Assembly (NCBI RefSeq): GCF_002252755.1
Contig: NZ_NHOY01000004.1
Span: forward strand, 1 to 43,133
Direction: 5' to 3'
Source: Halorubrum sp. Hd13
GTDB lineage: Archaea; Halobacteriota; Halobacteria; Halobacteriales; Haloferacaceae
DNA length: 43,133 nucleotides
The translations under genes were made by a program, and so were the position numbers. Numbering within the stretch: position 1 is the stretch's first letter; every line of letters begins with the position of its first letter. The notes under the pieces were generated by a model that saw nothing but the letters and a program-made list of their open reading frames with translations, made no database searches and was not told the DNA's origin. This document shows positions 31,130 to 40,272 of the stretch, piece by piece.

Positions 31130-32128
31130 ATGTACCTCGGAATAGACGTCCACAAACGGTACGCACAGGTGGCAGTGATGGATGAGGCTGGGAAGATCGT
31201 CGAAGAGGTTCGCGTCGAAAACGCGAACCTCGACGACCTCGCCCAGCGGTACGCCGGCGCACAAGCCGTGCTTGAGGCGACCTCCAACTACTACCACATC
31301 CACGATACGCTGTCGGAGCACTTGGATGTGACTGTCGCTCATCCCAAAAAGATCAACCAGATCGCAGACACCGACAAGAAAACCGACCGCGTTGACGCCA
31401 AAGAACTCGCGCGGATGCTCCGGTTAAATTCGGTGCCTGAAAGCTACGTTCCGACCGAGGAGGTCAGGGAAGCCCGCGCACGAGTGCGCGGGCGACAGAC
31501 GTTGGTCGAAAACCGTACCAAGTACGCCAACAAGATTCATGGGCTTCTCTCCGATCACGGCATCACTGAGGACGTGAAACCGCTAACCGTAGAGGGACGA
31601 GAGTCCCTGCGGGGACTCTCGATCCCGACGCCGTTCGATACGTTGCTTGAGTCGTACCTCGACCTGATCGAGTCGCTCACCGATGAGATTCAGAAGCTCG
31701 ATGAGACGATCGAAGAGCGCGCTGGGTCTCTGAAGGAGACCCAGCTGCTCATGACGATTCCCGGTGTGAGTTACTACACTGCGCTGACGATCTACGCGGA
31801 GTTAGGTGGGATCGACCGGTTTGACGGTGACAAGGAGGTCGTCAGTTACGTGGGATTGAACCCGGTGATCCGCGAGTCAGGTGACTCGCGGATCGAAGGG
31901 AGCATCTCAAAACGTGGATCAGGGAGTGTGCGATGGTTGCTCGTTCAAGCAGCAAACACCGCAGTTCATACCAGTAACGACGAGTATCTGAGTCGGTTTT
32001 ACGACCGGTTAGCAAGCCGAAAGAACTCACAGAAAGCGATTGTGGCAGCAGCTCGGAAGATGCTGGTATCGATCTACCACATGCTTGATCGGGGAGAAGC
32101 GTACGATCCACCCGGTGTGACCGCATAG
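31130..32128 (+). CDS. IS110-family transposase (DEDD)
   Basis: This is a 332-residue recombinase of normal size. The N-terminal RuvC-like domain carries the DEDD set: Asp6 (YLGIDVHKRY), Glu49 (AVLEATSNYY), and Asp86 and Asp89 (KKTDRVDAKELARM). A helical middle part (VRGRQTLVENRTKYANKIHG) leads to the C-terminal Transposase_20 domain with MTIPGVSYYTALTIYAELG, FDGDKEVVSYVGLNPV and SKRGSGSVRWLLVQAA, where the conserved catalytic Ser is expected. It appears intact. The gene contains five perfect 10-12-bp stem-loops, far more than chance predicts (see findings). The start is ATG 31130. Confidence 0.94.
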   Translation: MYLGIDVHKRYAQVAVMDEAGKIVEEVRVENANLDDLAQRYAGAQAVLEATSNYYHIHDTLSEHLDVTVAHPKKINQIADTDKKTDRVDAKELARMLRLNSVPESYVPTEEVREARARVRGRQTLVENRTKYANKIHGLLSDHGITEDVKPLTVEGRESLRGLSIPTPFDTLLESYLDLIESLTDEIQKLDETIEERAGSLKETQLLMTIPGVSYYTALTIYAELGGIDRFDGDKEVVSYVGLNPVIRESGDSRIEGSISKRGSGSVRWLLVQAANTAVHTSNDEYLSRFYDRLASRKNSQKAIVAAARKMLVSIYHMLDRGEAYDPPGVTA

Positions 32129-32459: not shown

Positions 32460-34358
32460 ATGAATTCACGACGACGTGATAGTCACGCAAATAGCATGCG
32501 ACGTGCTACCACGAGCAGACGGGCGTTACTCACAGCGAGCGGCGCCGTCGCAATCGGCGCGCTAAGTGGCTGTCTGAGCCAAGTCGCGTCGTCAGTCACG
32601 AACACAGGGTCGTCGCCTGCGGCAGTGTTCGCAGGTGCGGATTGGAACGACGATGACACGGAAGTCACCTTCGAGATGGCACCGGAAGGCCCGCACGTGG
32701 CTCGGTTGACTCCAACGGTGGCCGGGCGAGTTGAGTTGGAAGGGTGGGTGACTTCGACCGCGCTCGCCGCGGCGAACTACAACAACTCTCGGAGTGACAA
32801 GTCAATTATCCGGGCTCCTGACGGGGATGGAGATGCCGATGCCGATGGCGTTGACGACGACGTTCGCGGTGAGGACTATAATACGCCCCGGAGTAATCGG
32901 AGTATCGCGGGACCCAGCGATATCATCGACGACGATATCGACGAAGACGACGAGACGTTCCGGCGCGTCTTCCGACTTGACGCACAGCTCCAAGAGGCGA
33001 CGACTGCGGCTGCGACAGCAATTTCGAAGCGGAGTGCGCGGACGGGGCGGAATCCGGAAACGGAGAAAGAGATTACTGGGGTGTTGGGTGATATGGAAGC
33101 GGTGCTGGCCGAGATGCGGGCAGTGCTGGAGCGGTGTTCAGACGAGTCCTGTGTCGCGGCACTGGCGAACGTCGCAGATAGGGAGGCAGACGTTGTCCGA
33201 GCGCAGGAGTACGCTCAGGACGGCGAATGGGCGGCGTTCGGTCTTGACGGTGGTGGCGGGAACGACATCCTCGTCGGGGATTACTTGCTTCCACCAGTCG
33301 AGTTTGACTCATCCGGGTTGTTCAGTCCGGGAGAGCAGGCGGAGCTTTTCAGGTATCTTGAACAGAAGCCTGTTGTTGCGGAGCGGTTCGCTGTGTGTTT
33401 GCCCGATGCTGAGGTTCCGGGTGGAAACGGGAGTATCGAGGAAGCGGTGACGCCGGAGCGGCTCTTCGCCTACCTGACGGGTCGGTCTGATGGTGAGGGC
33501 CAACTCTACGCGTGGGGGTCAAATTCGGCTGGTTTGAGTGGTCCGGATGAGAGTGGTGATTGTGACGATGACGACTCCACTGTGTCCCCGGGTGCGGTAT
33601 GCGGGGCAACGCCCCACTTCGTTGCGGAGATGACGGGGCCTGTGGCGACGGGCGGTGGACTCGTGGCTGAGCGCGCTGCTGACGGCCACGTTGTTGTGAC
33701 GAACTCTCCACCGTCTGCTAAAGCTGGTACATCTGTTGTGGTGTGTCCGGTTGAGGGTGAGCCGTTCGAGCCGGAGGGGTTGGATGCGTGGGCAAAGAAA
33801 ATGGATGACCTACCTGTGGAAATTACTCAGCAGGGTCGGTTGCTCAACCTGACAGTAGCGCAGGTAATGGTTCAGCCACCGGGTTGTCCGGAGCCGGTTC
33901 CAGCCCTCATGTACGTGGGTCGAGGGCTGAACGATGGGCAGCTCATCTACTCAGGTGGATGGATTATCGATGATGCTGCGTTGTACGAGAATTCGACGAC
34001 GGTGTTGTCGATGGTGGGGGCAGCACAGGTGGTCCCGGTTGGACTCGACCGTCTCGGCGATCTCGACAGTGATGGGCTCGGTGATGGAGTGGCGCGAGCA
34101 GGGGTGAGTGAGCGGGCTCTGCGGGGCGCGCGGATTGAGTTGGGCGGAGTCGACAGAAGCGGCGACATCACTATCGAAGGGCTCGGTGGGAGGCTCCCGG
34201 GAATGACGTCCGGAGTCGATAGTGAAAAGGGGGAGACGTATCGGGTTGTGACGCACGTGGCGGTGGATGCGCCGGTGTTACACTTGGTGAACGCTTCGAG
34301 TGCGTCGGATGAGATAAAATTCAAGGCGGGGGCTGAGCTGTCGAAGAGCGTGAACTGA
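32460..34358 (+). CDS. Large Tat-exported lipoprotein, hypothetical
   Basis: This is a 632-residue precursor. The N-terminus has twin arginines (TSRRALLTASG), a hydrophobic core and a lipobox ALSGC, so the mature protein is a lipid-anchored surface protein. It then shows a threonine-rich beta segment, an Asp-rich calcium-type stretch (DGDGDADADGVDDD), two similar motifs (YNNSRSDKSI and YNTPRSNRSI), a helical coiled-coil-like part at about residues 175-260 (LQEATTAAATAISKRSART...), and a long beta-rich C-terminal region with several Cys. No enzyme motif is seen. The very acidic charge fits life outside the cell in high salt. Its function is unknown. Confidence 0.88.
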   Translation: MNSRRRDSHANSMRRATTSRRALLTASGAVAIGALSGCLSQVASSVTNTGSSPAAVFAGADWNDDDTEVTFEMAPEGPHVARLTPTVAGRVELEGWVTSTALAAANYNNSRSDKSIIRAPDGDGDADADGVDDDVRGEDYNTPRSNRSIAGPSDIIDDDIDEDDETFRRVFRLDAQLQEATTAAATAISKRSARTGRNPETEKEITGVLGDMEAVLAEMRAVLERCSDESCVAALANVADREADVVRAQEYAQDGEWAAFGLDGGGGNDILVGDYLLPPVEFDSSGLFSPGEQAELFRYLEQKPVVAERFAVCLPDAEVPGGNGSIEEAVTPERLFAYLTGRSDGEGQLYAWGSNSAGLSGPDESGDCDDDDSTVSPGAVCGATPHFVAEMTGPVATGGGLVAERAADGHVVVTNSPPSAKAGTSVVVCPVEGEPFEPEGLDAWAKKMDDLPVEITQQGRLLNLTVAQVMVQPPGCPEPVPALMYVGRGLNDGQLIYSGGWIIDDAALYENSTTVLSMVGAAQVVPVGLDRLGDLDSDGLGDGVARAGVSERALRGARIELGGVDRSGDITIEGLGGRLPGMTSGVDSEKGETYRVVTHVAVDAPVLHLVNASSASDEIKFKAGAELSKSVN

Positions 34359-34449
34359 CTGTCCGTGTTGTACCATACACTCTCGGTGGCGACCCGAGTT
34401 CTCGAACAGTATCGCTGTGCTGTATGTACTCTCTGTATACAGCACGCGA

Positions 34450-34483
34450 GTTCTACCAGACTCTGAGGATTTCGACAGAGGCC
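34450..34483 (+). repeat. Dispersed intergenic repeat, copy C
   Basis: GTTCTACCAGACTCTGAGGA followed by TTTCGACAGAGGCC matches copies A, B and D over about 32 bp. It lies where the truncated glycosyltransferase frame loses its homology, so it may mark the insertion or deletion that removed that gene's end. Confidence 0.7.
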
Positions 34484-34544
34484 TCTTTCTACTACGAACG
34501 ATACCACATAGGATTCCATTTTTTCAGAACAATCGTTGTAGCCG

Positions 34545-35260
34545 TTGCCACAGAAGAAGACACAGCCGATGAGAACGGCGACCAACACACCAAACGAAAG
34601 TTTCGCTACCGTTGGATCATGCGTTGCGAAAATCTGGTTGAACCGGATATGTCGTTCAACCGTCTGCCGGAGACTTCCACCCATTGGTACCCGGCGTCAG
34701 CGTTGAACTGACGTTACATCGGTGTGTTCCCCGAGGCGACCATCGTCGCTGATAGTCTGGCGGAGCTCCGAAAGGAACCTTTCCCCGTCAAGATCACTTC
34801 TGTCAAATATGACGGATCCACCCCAGGCGTGGTCGCCCATATACGTCCCGAGCGTTCCCCCAAGAGCATAAACAGGCTCTAACAGAACTGCAAGCGGATC
34901 CTGACCGACGAACGCCGGCAGCTCCGTTGTCGGGCCGTATTCGGCGTAGTCCTCGCGGAGGCGGTCAAGCCAGTCCGAGGGGTGATGAAAATCATCGTCG
35001 GTCCAGACGAAACGGTAGTAATTGGCAGCCTCCATCCCTACAGCGATAGCATTTGCTTTCCCCGAACACCCGACAGGGCCGCCGGCGGGGATCAACTGGA
35101 CGTTCTCCGGGAGCGTGTTTCGGTCCGCAACCGGGTCGTCCTCGGTATCGTGGATGATGAGGACCTCGTCCTCGGGACCCAACTTTGCGGCGACATCGTC
35201 ACAGGCGTGGGTCCAAGACACCGTCGGGAGGAGCACGCTTGTCGGTATGCGTGTAGACAT
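34545..35260 (-). pseudogene. Family 2 glycosyltransferase, broken by an in-frame TGA and 3'-truncated
   Basis: From ATG 35260 the protein starts MSTRIPTSVLLPTVSWTHAC and shows a GT-A fold: DEVLIIHDTEDDP, GPVGCSGKANAIAVGMEAAN, the DxD-like FVWTDDDFHHPSDW and LGEHTDVTSVQR. A TGA at 34697-34699 stops it. The same frame resumes with RRVPMGGSLRQTVERHIRFN and a membrane helix (LSFGVLVAVLIGCVFF), which is the usual C-terminus of this family, so one CGA-to-TGA change explains the break. Homology fades below about 34545, near repeat copy C at 34450-34483, so the last helix is also lost. It is nearly contiguous with the upstream membrane protein gene. Confidence 0.82.
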
Positions 35261-35270
35261 TGATGACTCA

Positions 35271-35696
35271 CTATGATAGCTTCTCACGGCGAGACCGGAC
35301 TCCGCCACCTAGCAGACTGCTGACGACACCGCCAGCAACCGCGAACGTGACAAGTGTTACCGTGAGTATGGCGGACAGGCCGACTTCCTGCCAGAGGACG
35401 AATGCATCTGGTGAAGCCGCCAGTACGCCCACGCGGACGATGCCCCTGTGATACCCCACCGGTTCAATAGCACCCGTCATGGCCAGAAACGTTACCACTG
35501 TCCATGGCAGTGTTCCCACCACGCCGGCTACGGCACTCACCACGGTCCTGCGACGCTGGCGCTGGAGTCCGCGTCCTGCGAGCCAGCCACCGGCGACAGG
35601 ACCGATTCCGGTTGGGACGGCTAGACACACGACGATGCTGCCAAGCAGTGTCCCTGCTATGGTCTGCCATACAGTCTGTGTCTGGTTCTCGGACAT
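35271..35696 (-). CDS. Four-TM membrane protein, hypothetical
   Basis: This is a 141-residue protein with glycine-rich helices at about residues 9-40, 51-73, 80-95 and 104-130 (the DUF5518-like pattern GTLLGSIVVCLAVPTGIGPVAGG) and a basic C-terminus (RSRREKLS). It ends 10 bp before the glycosyltransferase start, so the two were probably one operon with this gene first. It has no catalytic motif. It is divergent from the HTH regulator at 35820 and shares the spacer containing the operator at 35740-35760. Confidence 0.78.
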   Translation of the reverse strand: MSENQTQTVWQTIAGTLLGSIVVCLAVPTGIGPVAGGWLAGRGLQRQRRRTVVSAVAGVVGTLPWTVVTFLAMTGAIEPVGYHRGIVRVGVLAASPDAFVLWQEVGLSAILTVTLVTFAVAGGVVSSLLGGGVRSRREKLS

Positions 35697-35739: not shown

Positions 35740-35760
35740 TGGCTTCACCTACTGAAGCCA
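35740..35760. promoter_or_regulatory. Inverted-repeat operator, copy 1
   Basis: TGGCTTCA-CCTAC-TGAAGCCA has perfect 8-bp arms and a 5-bp spacer. It lies 60 bp before the GTG of the HTH gene at 35820, next to a TATA-like ACCTATATTG at about 35784. The same site with one arm mismatch is at 36513-36533. Confidence 0.75.
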
Positions 35761-35819
35761 GACAGAACGGCTAGAACGGCACAACCTATATTGACGAACG
35801 AAGAGATGACCGATGTACC

Positions 35820-36161
35820 GTGTCCGAGGTGCGAGATCCCGAAGCGCTCGCGGATTTGCTTGGGGACGAGTGTACGCGCACGATTCTCGTCGAGACGAAG
35901 AAGGAACCGTGCTCGGCGGCGGAGCTCAGCGACTGCGCCGGGGTCTCGGAGCCGACGGTCTATCGCCGACTCGAACGACTCCGCGAGTACGATCTGGTTA
36001 CCGAAGATATCCAGCCAGTCACCGACGGAAAAAACTACAAGCTCTACCGGACGGATCTTGACGGGATCGAACTCGATCTCAGCGAAGACGGCTTTGAGAT
36101 TACGATTTCACGTCGGGAACGGATGGCAGACCGCTTCACGCAGTTCGTAGAGGGAAGCTAA
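35820..36161 (+). CDS. ArsR-type winged-helix regulator
   Basis: This is a 113-residue protein with a GTG start. Its winged helix reads VRDPEALADLLGDECTRTIL, then CSAAELSDCAGVSEPTVYRRLERLREYDLVTED, with the wing DGKNYKLYRTDLDGIEL. The tail includes RRERMADRFTQFVEG. It should act as a dimer binding an inverted repeat; the palindrome at 35740-35760 is the natural site. It is followed after one base by a small membrane protein gene, so they form an operon. This HTH plus membrane protein pair is common in haloarchaea, with a signal that is unknown. Confidence 0.9.
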   Translation: MSEVRDPEALADLLGDECTRTILVETKKEPCSAAELSDCAGVSEPTVYRRLERLREYDLVTEDIQPVTDGKNYKLYRTDLDGIELDLSEDGFEITISRRERMADRFTQFVEGS

Positions 36162-36162
36162 T

Positions 36163-36480
36163 ATGCTCGATACACCGCTCCAATTGATTGATCTTGATAC
36201 GCTACGAACCGTCCGTCAGCTGAGCGAGGTGATCCCGATGATCATCGGTTTGGGGATCGGTTACCTCGCTTACACGGCATACCGGCAGAATCAGAGCCGT
36301 CCGATGTTGTACATCGCGATCGGGTTCATACTAGTATTGTTCGTTCAGGCTCCGCTGGCCCTCATCTTCATTTACGTCTTGGAGCTTCCCACCCCGGTCC
36401 TCAATAGCCTCCTCCAAATCCCCGAGTTCACCGGTCTGGGACTGATCCTCTACGGGCTGTGGATGCCACGCCGAGACTAA
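36163..36480 (+). CDS. Small three-TM membrane protein (DUF7521-like)
   Basis: This is a 105-residue protein. A short N-terminus (MLDTPLQLIDLDTLRTVRQL) precedes a helix at about residues 23-40, a second at about 47-73, and a third at about 85-101. The loop AYRQNQSRPML between the first two is polar and basic. The combination with an ArsR-type regulator one base upstream is the typical haloarchaeal pair (I believe DUF7521). It may pass a membrane signal to the regulator or be its main regulated product. Confidence 0.85.
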   Translation: MLDTPLQLIDLDTLRTVRQLSEVIPMIIGLGIGYLAYTAYRQNQSRPMLYIAIGFILVLFVQAPLALIFIYVLELPTPVLNSLLQIPEFTGLGLILYGLWMPRRD

Positions 36481-36512
36481 TGTCACGCCCGAGCCCATAT
36501 ACGACGGTAGGT

Positions 36513-36533
36513 TGACTTCAACCAGTGAAGCCA
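36513..36533. promoter_or_regulatory. Inverted-repeat operator, copy 2
   Basis: TGACTTCA-ACCAG-TGAAGCCA has the same layout as 35740-35760: identical right arm, one mismatch in the left arm and the same 5-bp spacer. It lies about 45 bp before the CPBP protease start at 36577, which fits overlap with its promoter. It implies co-regulation by the HTH at 35820. Confidence 0.72.
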
Positions 36534-36576
36534 GGGAAATCAGCCTTTTTCCATGCGTCCATGCGTTCAGGTGTCG

Positions 36577-37587
36577 ATGACCGAAGCAGACACCGACACC
36601 AACTTCGAACGAACCGCGTCGCGGTCGGGCGATGACGACCGGCGAACTAATTACGGTGGCATCACCGGACGCGTCGTCTCCGTGCTGTGGAATCGAACCG
36701 AGAATCGCCCCCGTGCACTCTGGCGGATCCTCGGAGTGGAAGTCGCCGCGCTCGTGGGGATTTTCGTGCTCCCGGGGCTGGCGCTCGCGGGCACCGAACT
36801 CCCGCCGTCGATGACCGGAGCCGCCTCAAACCTCATCGCTGCCCTCTCTGGACTCCTCGTGGCGGTTGGCGTCGCGAGGTACGTCGACCGGCGACCGTTG
36901 ACCGACTACGGACTCGCGTTTGACCCGTCGTGGCTGAAGGACTTCGGCGCTGGCAGCGTCATCGCCCTGGCGGGGATGGCGGTAGCACTCCCCGTGAGTC
37001 TGCTTGCCGGGTGGGCGACCGTCTCCGAGGTGTTCTCGGGTGGCGCTGGCGCGAACGTGTTGCCGTTCGCCGCCGCATTCGGAGTGTGGACCATCCAGTG
37101 GATGTTTGTGGCCTTCTGGGAAGAGCTGGTCTATCGGGGCCTCATTCTGACGAGCGCCGTCGAAGGACTCCGGAGTCGGTGGCTGTCCGACCGTGGCGCG
37201 GTCGTGGCAGGAGTGGTGGCGTCCTCGCTGATATTCAGTCTCGGGCACTTCCCGGATACGCTGGGAAAGTTCGGATTTCGGGCGGCGTTAGGGCTCCTCC
37301 TCGGGGGCGCGTACGTGTGGACCGACTCGCTGGCGCTGCCGATCGGCCTCCATTTCCTGATCAACTTTGCGATAAACAACATCTACGGGCTAGCAAACTT
37401 CGGTGAGGCTGCGGGGGTTCTGCCGATGCTGATCCGGCCGACGTTCACCGGCCCGACACAGTTCGTCGGGGTGTACGGGGCAGTCAACGGCGCAGCCGTG
37501 CTCTGTGTCGCTGCGCTCACCGTCGGATACGTTGTCCTCCGGAACGGCGATCTTAGGTCGCGGCTGTCGTCAGCGTACATGCAGTGA
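36577..37587 (+). CDS. CPBP-family intramembrane metalloprotease
   Basis: This is a 336-residue polytopic protein. A polar acidic tail of about 45 residues is followed by some eight helices. The CPBP motifs are complete: EELVYRGLIL (about residues 182-190), SLGHFPDT (His near 223) and GLHFLINFAINN (His near 258). It is longer than the copy at 8796-9557 and not closely similar to it. The ATG at 36577 (MTEADTDTN) is preferred over 36553, because the earlier codons encode no conserved sequence. The operator upstream ties it to the HTH regulator gene at 35820. The substrate is unknown; immunity to a secreted peptide is one known role in the family. Confidence 0.9.
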   Translation: MTEADTDTNFERTASRSGDDDRRTNYGGITGRVVSVLWNRTENRPRALWRILGVEVAALVGIFVLPGLALAGTELPPSMTGAASNLIAALSGLLVAVGVARYVDRRPLTDYGLAFDPSWLKDFGAGSVIALAGMAVALPVSLLAGWATVSEVFSGGAGANVLPFAAAFGVWTIQWMFVAFWEELVYRGLILTSAVEGLRSRWLSDRGAVVAGVVASSLIFSLGHFPDTLGKFGFRAALGLLLGGAYVWTDSLALPIGLHFLINFAINNIYGLANFGEAAGVLPMLIRPTFTGPTQFVGVYGAVNGAAVLCVAALTVGYVVLRNGDLRSRLSSAYMQ

Positions 37588-38583: not shown

Positions 38584-40272
38584 ATGATCAACACCAGCAG
38601 ACGAACCTTCCTAACGGGTGTCGGCGGACTGGCGCTGACGGGCGTCGGATCGACTGCTGACCGCGCGAAAGCCAGTTCACGCACGGTGGAGGCAGGTACG
38701 GTTCCTGAGACGGTGTCCCCCGAGATGAGCGATCTTGAGTCGGTTGTCGAAGAGACGCTGGCGTCGCAGCTCGGCGACGCTGCTCCCGGGGCGACAGTTG
38801 CGATTGTCAACGGCGACGATATCGCACTCGCAAAAGGATACGGCCACGCCGATGTCGAAACGGGGAGGCGTATGGATAAAAAAGAGACAGCCACCCGTAT
38901 CGGATCGGTCTCGAAACTCGTGACGTGGACGGCAGTAATGCAGGGCGTACAGGATGGCGTCCTCGATTTGGATGCCGATGTTAACAGGTATCTTGAGGAC
39001 TCCGCTGTCACTATCCCGGACACGTATTCCGACCCGGTGACGCTCCGTCATCTCGGAACCCACACTGCCGGGTTCAGCGTCGTTCCAAATCCTGGACTCG
39101 TTACGAACTCGAACGCACTCACCAGTCTGGAAACGGCGCTTGTCGAGGACCAACCGGACCGGATCCGCCCGCCAAGCGAAGCTGTCGCGTACTCCAACTG
39201 GGGCGCGACGCTGGCCGGTCACATCGTCGCTGAAGCATATGATACGACCTTCGAGGAGTACGTCCAATCAAACATCTGTGGTCCACTCGAGATGAACCAC
39301 AGCACGTTTACACAGCCGGTTCCCGCTGACCACCCCGGCGACCTGGCTGCCCCACACGATTCGAGTGGCGACGAAATTACTCGGGTGGATCCGTTGTACA
39401 TCAACTGGGGGCCGGCCGGGTCGATGAGTGCGACGGCACTCGATATGGCAGCGTTCATGCAAGCGCATCTCGGGTACGGGACCGACGCGATACTGAACAG
39501 CGAGACGATGGCAACGATGCACAGCCGACAATACGGACGTCACCCGGCGGTCAACGGACTGCGATACGGGTTCTTCGAGTACGGCCCTCCCAGTGGATCG
39601 TACATCGGTCATTCGGGCGGGACCGTCTACTACACTGCTTGGCTGGGGCTGCTCCCAGACCACGACGTCGGAGTGTTCATCGGGTTCAACGGTCTCGGAG
39701 ACCCAGTCACTCCCGCCGCCGAGATCCTGACCGAATACGGCTTGTTCCCTGAAACCCCAACACCTGATCCAACCACGGCGCGAACGAGCCGCGAGCGCGC
39801 TGAGGCGGTAGCGGGTGAATACAAGTCTACGGCTACCGCTTTTGAAGACGACTGGCGTCAAGTGATTGGGCTGTTAAGCCGACTATCTGTCGACGCAACT
39901 GATGATGGTGGTCTCGTCACACAGACCATGGGAGGCGACGCCGTCGAGTGGGTCGAAACCGAGCCGTACGTCTATCGCGAACGTAATGGGGACGATGTCC
40001 TAGCGGTCGATGTTGCGGACGGGCGTGTCACGCAACTGCACCTTAACAGTCAACCGTCGACTACCTTCCTCCCGGTCACGATGCCTGACCAGCGCAAGGT
40101 CACGCTCGGAGCTGTCGGAGCCGCAGCCGGGGGATCCGCTCTTTCTCTCGTCGGGTGGGCGGGAATCAGCGGCTGGCGGCGTCTCAGTCGCTTCCGATCT
40201 GGTAGCGACGGCGGATCCACACCCGATGACGAGACGGCTCAACCAGACCGCAATAAGGAGGGATCGCAGTGA
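38584..40272 (+). CDS. Tat-exported serine hydrolase (beta-lactamase/class C-like)
   Basis: This is a 562-residue protein. The signal is twin-arginine (NTSRRTFLTGVGGLALTGVG) without a lipobox. The serine-hydrolase triad is complete: GSVSK (Ser in SxxK, about residues 107-110), YSN in VAYSNWGA (about 202-204) and HSG in IGHSGGT (about 343-345). Such enzymes are penicillin-binding-protein-like peptidases or esterases. After the catalytic domain comes a beta-rich domain and, at about 505-530, a C-terminal helix (LGAVGAAAGGSALSLVGWAG), so it is probably held on the outer face of the membrane. The stop overlaps the GTG of the next gene, so they are co-transcribed. The natural substrate is unknown. 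Confidence 0.92.
   Translation: MINTSRRTFLTGVGGLALTGVGSTADRAKASSRTVEAGTVPETVSPEMSDLESVVEETLASQLGDAAPGATVAIVNGDDIALAKGYGHADVETGRRMDKKETATRIGSVSKLVTWTAVMQGVQDGVLDLDADVNRYLEDSAVTIPDTYSDPVTLRHLGTHTAGFSVVPNPGLVTNSNALTSLETALVEDQPDRIRPPSEAVAYSNWGATLAGHIVAEAYDTTFEEYVQSNICGPLEMNHSTFTQPVPADHPGDLAAPHDSSGDEITRVDPLYINWGPAGSMSATALDMAAFMQAHLGYGTDAILNSETMATMHSRQYGRHPAVNGLRYGFFEYGPPSGSYIGHSGGTVYYTAWLGLLPDHDVGVFIGFNGLGDPVTPAAEILTEYGLFPETPTPDPTTARTSRERAEAVAGEYKSTATAFEDDWRQVIGLLSRLSVDATDDGGLVTQTMGGDAVEWVETEPYVYRERNGDDVLAVDVADGRVTQLHLNSQPSTTFLPVTMPDQRKVTLGAVGAAAGGSALSLVGWAGISGWRRLSRFRSGSDGGSTPDDETAQPDRNKEGSQ

Follow-up and report, generated by a model that had tools for sequence, protein, structure and literature searches.

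A conserved palindrome associates an ArsR-like regulator and the neighbouring DUF7521 membrane protein with CPBP protease genes in haloarchaea

Introduction

In the SdpR-SdpI system of Bacillus subtilis, the membrane protein sequesters the regulator (PMC1626106). According to a review of TrmB, archaeal activators bind upstream of BRE/TATA, while repressor sites overlap the TATA box or the start site (PMC4158304). The same review cites Phr as a repressor whose sites lie downstream of BRE/TATA (PMC4158304). The Haloferax regulator CsmR also has its site upstream of BRE/TATA, but its targets are expressed more strongly in the deletion strain (PMC13286277).

The locus described here lies in a 43,133-nt stretch of Halorubrum sp. 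Hd13 DNA (contig NZ_NHOY01000004.1, hereafter the window). It carries genes for a winged-helix-turn-helix (HTH) regulator, a DUF7521 membrane protein and a CPBP protease, which are all members of named families. Their combination, the operator and the recognition code reported below were not found in the literature searched, a search that left most subscription journals outside. It likewise returned no description of haloarchaeal SdpR/SdpI or of CPBP with ArsR in haloarchaea, and no mention of DUF7521.

Results

The first-pass annotation had proposed one operator before both the HTH operon and the CPBP gene, in a compact module of regulator, small membrane protein and protease with its own site. 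Both the shared operator and this layout were borne out in the window, and the sites were also conserved in relatives. Operator 1 (TGGCTTCACCTACTGAAGCCA, 35740-35760, assigned to neither strand) is a perfect 8-5-8 palindrome that separates the HTH transcription unit from the divergent MP141 unit and is conserved beside orthologues. Operator 2 (TGACTTCAACCAGTGAAGCCA, 36513-36533, likewise without strand) pairs in 7 of its 8 arm positions, differs from operator 1 by one arm base and the spacer, and is kept before CPBP genes in relatives. Between site and start codon lie 59 nt for the HTH gene (GTG start) and 43 nt for both the CPBP gene and the divergent MP141 gene (ATG starts). With no more than 3 mismatches allowed, the window held 4 strand-matches versus 0.47 expected, and 1 of 100 shuffles gave 4. 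When the whole genome (3.81 Mb) was scanned with a degenerate pattern, operators 1 and 2 were the sole matches at up to 1 mismatch, which ruled out a global regulon; two further weak 2-mismatch matches both lay away from any HTH orthologue. Chance occurrence of the motif was ruled out by the whole-genome scan together with a scan of 392 genomes that included a reversed-pattern control.

The regulator gene (35820..36161, plus strand) starts with GTG and encodes 113 aa. Its product scored above the cut-off for Pfam HTH_20, an ArsR-like winged-HTH family (34.7 bits, cut-off 27), just below that for the ArsR model PF01022 (21.7 bits, cut-off 22), and weakly against a TrmB domain. The NCBIfam models placed it outside both the SdpR subfamily (22.3 bits, cut-off 100) and Phr (25.7 bits, cut-off 320). 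In the AlphaFold model (mean pLDDT 80.7), the nearest solved fold was Phr of Pyrococcus (2p4w; Foldseek E 1e-5, TMq 0.69), with SmtB and CzrA as other neighbours. The model puts the recognition helix at about residues 44-56, and Pro45 is proposed as the base-choosing residue. Related HTH proteins gave 12 matches in the Hd13 genome. PADLOC returned weak matches of the HTH protein to Csa3/CARF/WYL models and none for DUF7521, CPBP or MP141, and the module was not filed as a known defence system.

Directly 3' of the regulator gene, 36163..36480 (plus strand) encodes the 105-aa DUF7521 protein, recognised by Pfam PF24365 (37.6 bits, cut-off 27) and further described by an alignment and a model. 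The model was all helical (pLDDT 86), three membrane-spanning stretches were read from the sequence, and the alignment was best conserved in the loop after the first of these (YRxNxSRPM). A fold search with the model gave no match at E <= 0.001. The protein also had no match to SdpI or DUF1648 profiles, which places it outside the SdpI family as searched. DUF7521 was present in 114 of 116 Halobacteriales genomes, at 1 to 11 copies per genome, and in Haloferax volcanii only among 14 control genomes.

The CPBP gene (36577..37587, plus strand) encodes a predicted Rce1-like intramembrane protease of 336 aa. It matched PF02517 with 58.8 bits (cut-off 22.4), and the motifs EExxxR, FxxxH and HxxxN were present in the translation as EELVYR, FSLGH and HFLIN. 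On the other side of the module, MP141 (35271..35696, minus strand) is a small membrane protein, judged by its hydrophobic sequence, whose gene diverges from the HTH gene and starts 43 nt from operator 1; a Pfam search of it gave no match. It occupies the equivalent position in L053, L045, L047, L060 and L062, and is followed by a shortened family 21/2 glycosyltransferase gene (34697..35263, minus strand; relatives 307 aa). The annotated sharing of operator 1 between this divergent unit and the HTH operon held.

Several other features were observed around the module. Within 34355-35263 (minus strand), the glycosyltransferase frame stops in-frame at 188 aa, compared with the intact 307-aa relatives in L006 and L042; similarity to these continues past the stop in the same frame and then fades, so that the gene looks broken. 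Just 3' of the module, 38584-40272 (plus strand) encodes a beta-lactamase-fold serine hydrolase (PF00144). In L051, L157 and L158 a paralogue operator lies 42-43 nt from the start of the related gene, and in the window no TGRCTTCA-type site precedes the gene. A frame near the module at 31130-32128 (plus strand) resembled an IS110-type transposase when judged by eye.

The exact motif occurred at 14 places in 11 of the 392 Halobacteriales genomes, as against 1 place for the reversed-pattern control, and all 14 adjoin an HTH relative of 47-95% identity. A motif that was common and unrelated to regulator orthologues was thus not what the 392 genomes held, and both sites were found conserved together with the regulator. 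Among the 28 distinct sites of the window clade, positions 5-7 and 14-18 were invariant and the spacer was variable. Among close relatives in which a site could be recognised, the distance from site end to HTH start was almost always 59-60 nt; at 50 nt, L045 and L062 deviate, perhaps through the choice of start codon. The site in L043 is degenerate only, and no clear site was seen before the HTH gene of L008.

On the target side, the gap to the start codon was 40-44 nt, also for CPBPs of other subfamilies; L036 and L040 each offer two possible in-frame starts, at 40 and 58 nt. Targets within the clade were the window-type CPBP, two further CPBP types, MP141 or the glycosyltransferase. The second CPBP type (EE-GWRGFALP) is the target in L036, L037, L040, L042, L043 and L008, and the third in L041. 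In the Halobellus-type clade, a single operator serves divergent CPBP and HTH genes. Since non-orthologous proteases stand behind the same operator, the sequence comparison points to selection acting on the link between regulator and protease.

Some of these loci showed features of their own. A Halorientalis marina plasmid carries two module copies (L036 and L037) with differing target CPBP sequences, and other orthologues of the module are located on Haloarcula plasmids. One of these is plasmid pHH126 of Haloarcula hispanica, where the module comprises HISP_RS16985 (glycosyltransferase), RS16980 (HTH), RS16975 (membrane protein) and RS16970 (CPBP) and retains both sites. The RefSeq start of the Haloarcula hispanica HTH protein HISP_RS16980 (L209:3420-3842) falls at the operator, with a conserved GTG 27 codons inward, and this annotation is probably too long. 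The HTH copy at L042:4001-4339 has a stop inside the translated stretch and that at L061:1581-1879 is split into two matches; both copies are possibly decayed.

At target promoters, the operator abuts the BRE region just upstream of a weak TATA-like element, which before the CPBP gene was read as TTTTTC (36546..36551, plus strand). At the HTH promoter, the operator ends about 26 nt upstream of the TATA element; the putative BRE/TATA (CACAAC CTATATT, 35780..35792, plus strand) was read from the sequence and aligned with orthologues. The mean A+T content of the best hexamer was 4.6 of 6 in target promoters, 5.3 in HTH promoters and 3.3 in the background. Relatives largely share a GAGATG-like hexamer that precedes the HTH start by about 14 nt (~35803-35808); its ATG is out of the HTH frame.

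The operator core varied with the residue located two positions past the serine at which the recognition helix begins; in the window regulator this residue is Pro45. Operator candidates were filtered by palindromy, A...T frame and distance, and the residue itself was not used. With Pro, the core was mostly CTTCA or TTTCA (TTC in 45 of 48); Gln went with YTCCA (TCC in 7/7), Ala with TCTCA (CTC in 5 of 6, the exception being L012), Ser with TCGCA/TCCCA (C[CGT]C in 4/5) and Val with CTTCA. On the tree, in which many forks are poorly resolved, the residue and the operator class each switched 7 times, with the Ser type in about three places. An independent-pairs sign test was mostly concordant in direction, with too few independent switches for power, and a second search with the Ser-type HTH mostly recovered the same regions and added little to the code. 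This co-variation is suggestive of the adjacent HTH protein as the binder, its independent weight being limited by shared ancestry. Because the exact motif occurs only beside orthologues and the core changes with the helix residue, the regulator itself very probably binds the palindromes. With an operator that is conserved before its own gene and varies with the recognition helix, it would belong among autoregulated winged-HTH proteins with a palindromic operator.

HTH relatives were found in 331 of 392 Halobacteriales genomes at E <= 1e-15. In 106 of 120 copies (~88%), the HTH was directly followed by a small protein predicted to have two or more membrane segments, a low count given that L063 and L064 among the rest have DUF7521 by homology; the commonest arrangement of the two frames was a 4-nt overlap. 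Upstream of the 120 HTH copies there were 18 perfect 8-5-8 palindromes versus 0.3 expected and 31 with 7 pairs versus 7.7 expected, an excess partly contributed by close relatives. With the filters used, 60 of 122 HTH copies had a clear operator and about half had none. Where a paralogue has an operator, the site mostly stops 36-42 nt short of the HTH start, immediately ahead of a TATA-like element. The window module represents one clade within a haloarchaea-wide family of cassettes that combine an HTH and a small membrane protein, many with their own operator version.

Divergent frames with starts 40-45 nt from paralogue operators were again mostly envelope genes. CPBP genes were identified by Pfam in L178, L149, L140, L168 and L179 and by resemblance in L177; the L179 cassette belongs to the Hd13 genome itself and is distinct from the first one there. 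DUF1648, a domain known from SdpI, was approached by a stretch in L018 (E 1.3e-5 yet below the Pfam cut-off) and weakly in L139, and small membrane proteins of L156, L144, L169, L166 and L016 were DUF1648-like by resemblance only. Further targets were beta-lactamase-fold hydrolases (L051 by Pfam, L157 and L158 by resemblance), an ABC ATPase (L012), DUF3784 (L142; look-alikes L137 and L167) and a plastocyanin-like lipoprotein (L033; look-alike L034).

Discussion

We consider it fairly probable that a dimer of the 113-aa HTH protein binds each of the two 21-bp palindromes and regulates its own HTH-DUF7521 operon, the divergent MP141/glycosyltransferase unit and the CPBP gene, slightly more likely as an activator than as a repressor, with DUF7521 in signalling. 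Sitting directly upstream of the weak BRE/TATA at its targets, it would most likely help recruit TFB/TBP. By analogy with SdpI and SdpR, DUF7521 most likely relays a signal from the envelope to the regulator, whose targets would in turn reshape or protect the envelope. Comparative data support the binding site, the autoregulation, the target set and the fixed geometry. Autoregulation plus control of the protease by one regulator, as first annotated, gains support from the conservation of both sites with the regulator, and the suggested role in immunity or membrane stress would be compatible with the target list.

The identity of the binder could be questioned, as many related HTH proteins exist in haloarchaea (12 in Hd13 alone) and cross-binding is possible, so that the adjacent gene would be a mere neighbour of a palindrome bound by another regulator. 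We regard this as improbable, given that the exact motif is confined to the surroundings of HTH family members and its core varies with the recognition helix of the adjacent protein. That these intergenic inverted repeats, perfect or nearly so, are instead RNA hairpins, terminators or mobile-element ends hardly seems credible: their distance to the start codon is fixed on either strand, they lie upstream of TATA, their spacer is variable and they co-vary with the HTH protein.

A weightier alternative concerns the sign of regulation. The protein may be a classical local repressor of its own operon and targets, with repression lifted by an envelope signal through DUF7521, as with SdpI/SdpR. This is a minority reading, which we nevertheless take seriously. 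It draws on the ArsR-like fold with its neighbours Phr, SmtB and CzrA, on the weak match to the SdpR NCBIfam model, and on the SdpRI precedent (PMC1626106). Phr, the nearest solved relative by fold, is also cited as a repressor, and the CsmR deletion strain is derepressed with a site upstream of BRE/TATA (PMC13286277). Against it, the sites are clear of the TATA box and start site where repressor sites are placed (PMC4158304), that of the HTH promoter ends about 26 nt upstream of TATA, and a rigidly kept spacing next to weak TATA elements is seen more typically with activation. Sites just upstream of BRE/TATA at weak promoters thus slightly favour activation, which is held only slightly above repression because CsmR, also bound upstream, gives higher expression on deletion. 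The operator position by itself fits either sign, as archaeal regulators known to bind at sites of this kind include both activators and repressors.

More speculatively, HTH-DUF7521 pairs may form a haloarchaea-wide, paralogously expanded set of one-component regulators gated at the membrane, which would make them the counterpart of SdpR-SdpI in archaea. Each would recognise its own 8-5-8 operator through the helix code and activate envelope-protection genes (CPBP, DUF1648-like, hydrolases, ABC ATPase) against antagonists such as halocins. This wider proposal is tentative and we think it doubtful as a whole.

For DUF7521, a Pfam family without known function present in nearly every Halobacteriales genome examined, these results provide a candidate partner, operator and target set. 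They also provide a testable protein-DNA code by which the regulons of many uncharacterised haloarchaeal regulators could be predicted from sequence alone, and they tie intramembrane CPBP proteases to a dedicated candidate switch. If DUF7521 gates the regulator, this would be an archaeal route of membrane-to-gene signalling outside two-component systems.

Compared with known systems, the module resembles SdpR-SdpI of B. subtilis in pairing a small ArsR-like winged-HTH gene with a membrane protein gene, and some paralogue cassettes adjoin DUF1648-like genes. SdpR-SdpI is an autorepressor with a membrane receptor/immunity protein; here activation is slightly preferred. DUF7521 is a small membrane protein with three predicted helices for which no match to SdpI families was detected, the targets, CPBP proteases among them, have separate promoters, and the site lies upstream of BRE/TATA in an archaeal promoter. 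Phr, the heat-shock regulator of Pyrococcus furiosus, has the closest solved fold to the modelled regulator (2p4w). It differs in length (about 200 aa versus 113 aa), operator and targets, the regulator here has a membrane partner gene, and Phr is cited as acting at sites downstream of BRE/TATA, whereas the present sites are upstream. The archaeal activators TFB-RF1, Ptr2 and TrmBL1 share a site directly upstream of the promoter elements; the homology seen here is a weak TrmB domain match, and activation is only proposed. CsmR of Haloferax volcanii likewise regulates genes in a haloarchaeon from a semi-palindromic site adjoining BRE/TATA; its motif is TATCA-N4-TGATA with 65 binding peaks (PMC13286277), whereas the regulon described here is local.
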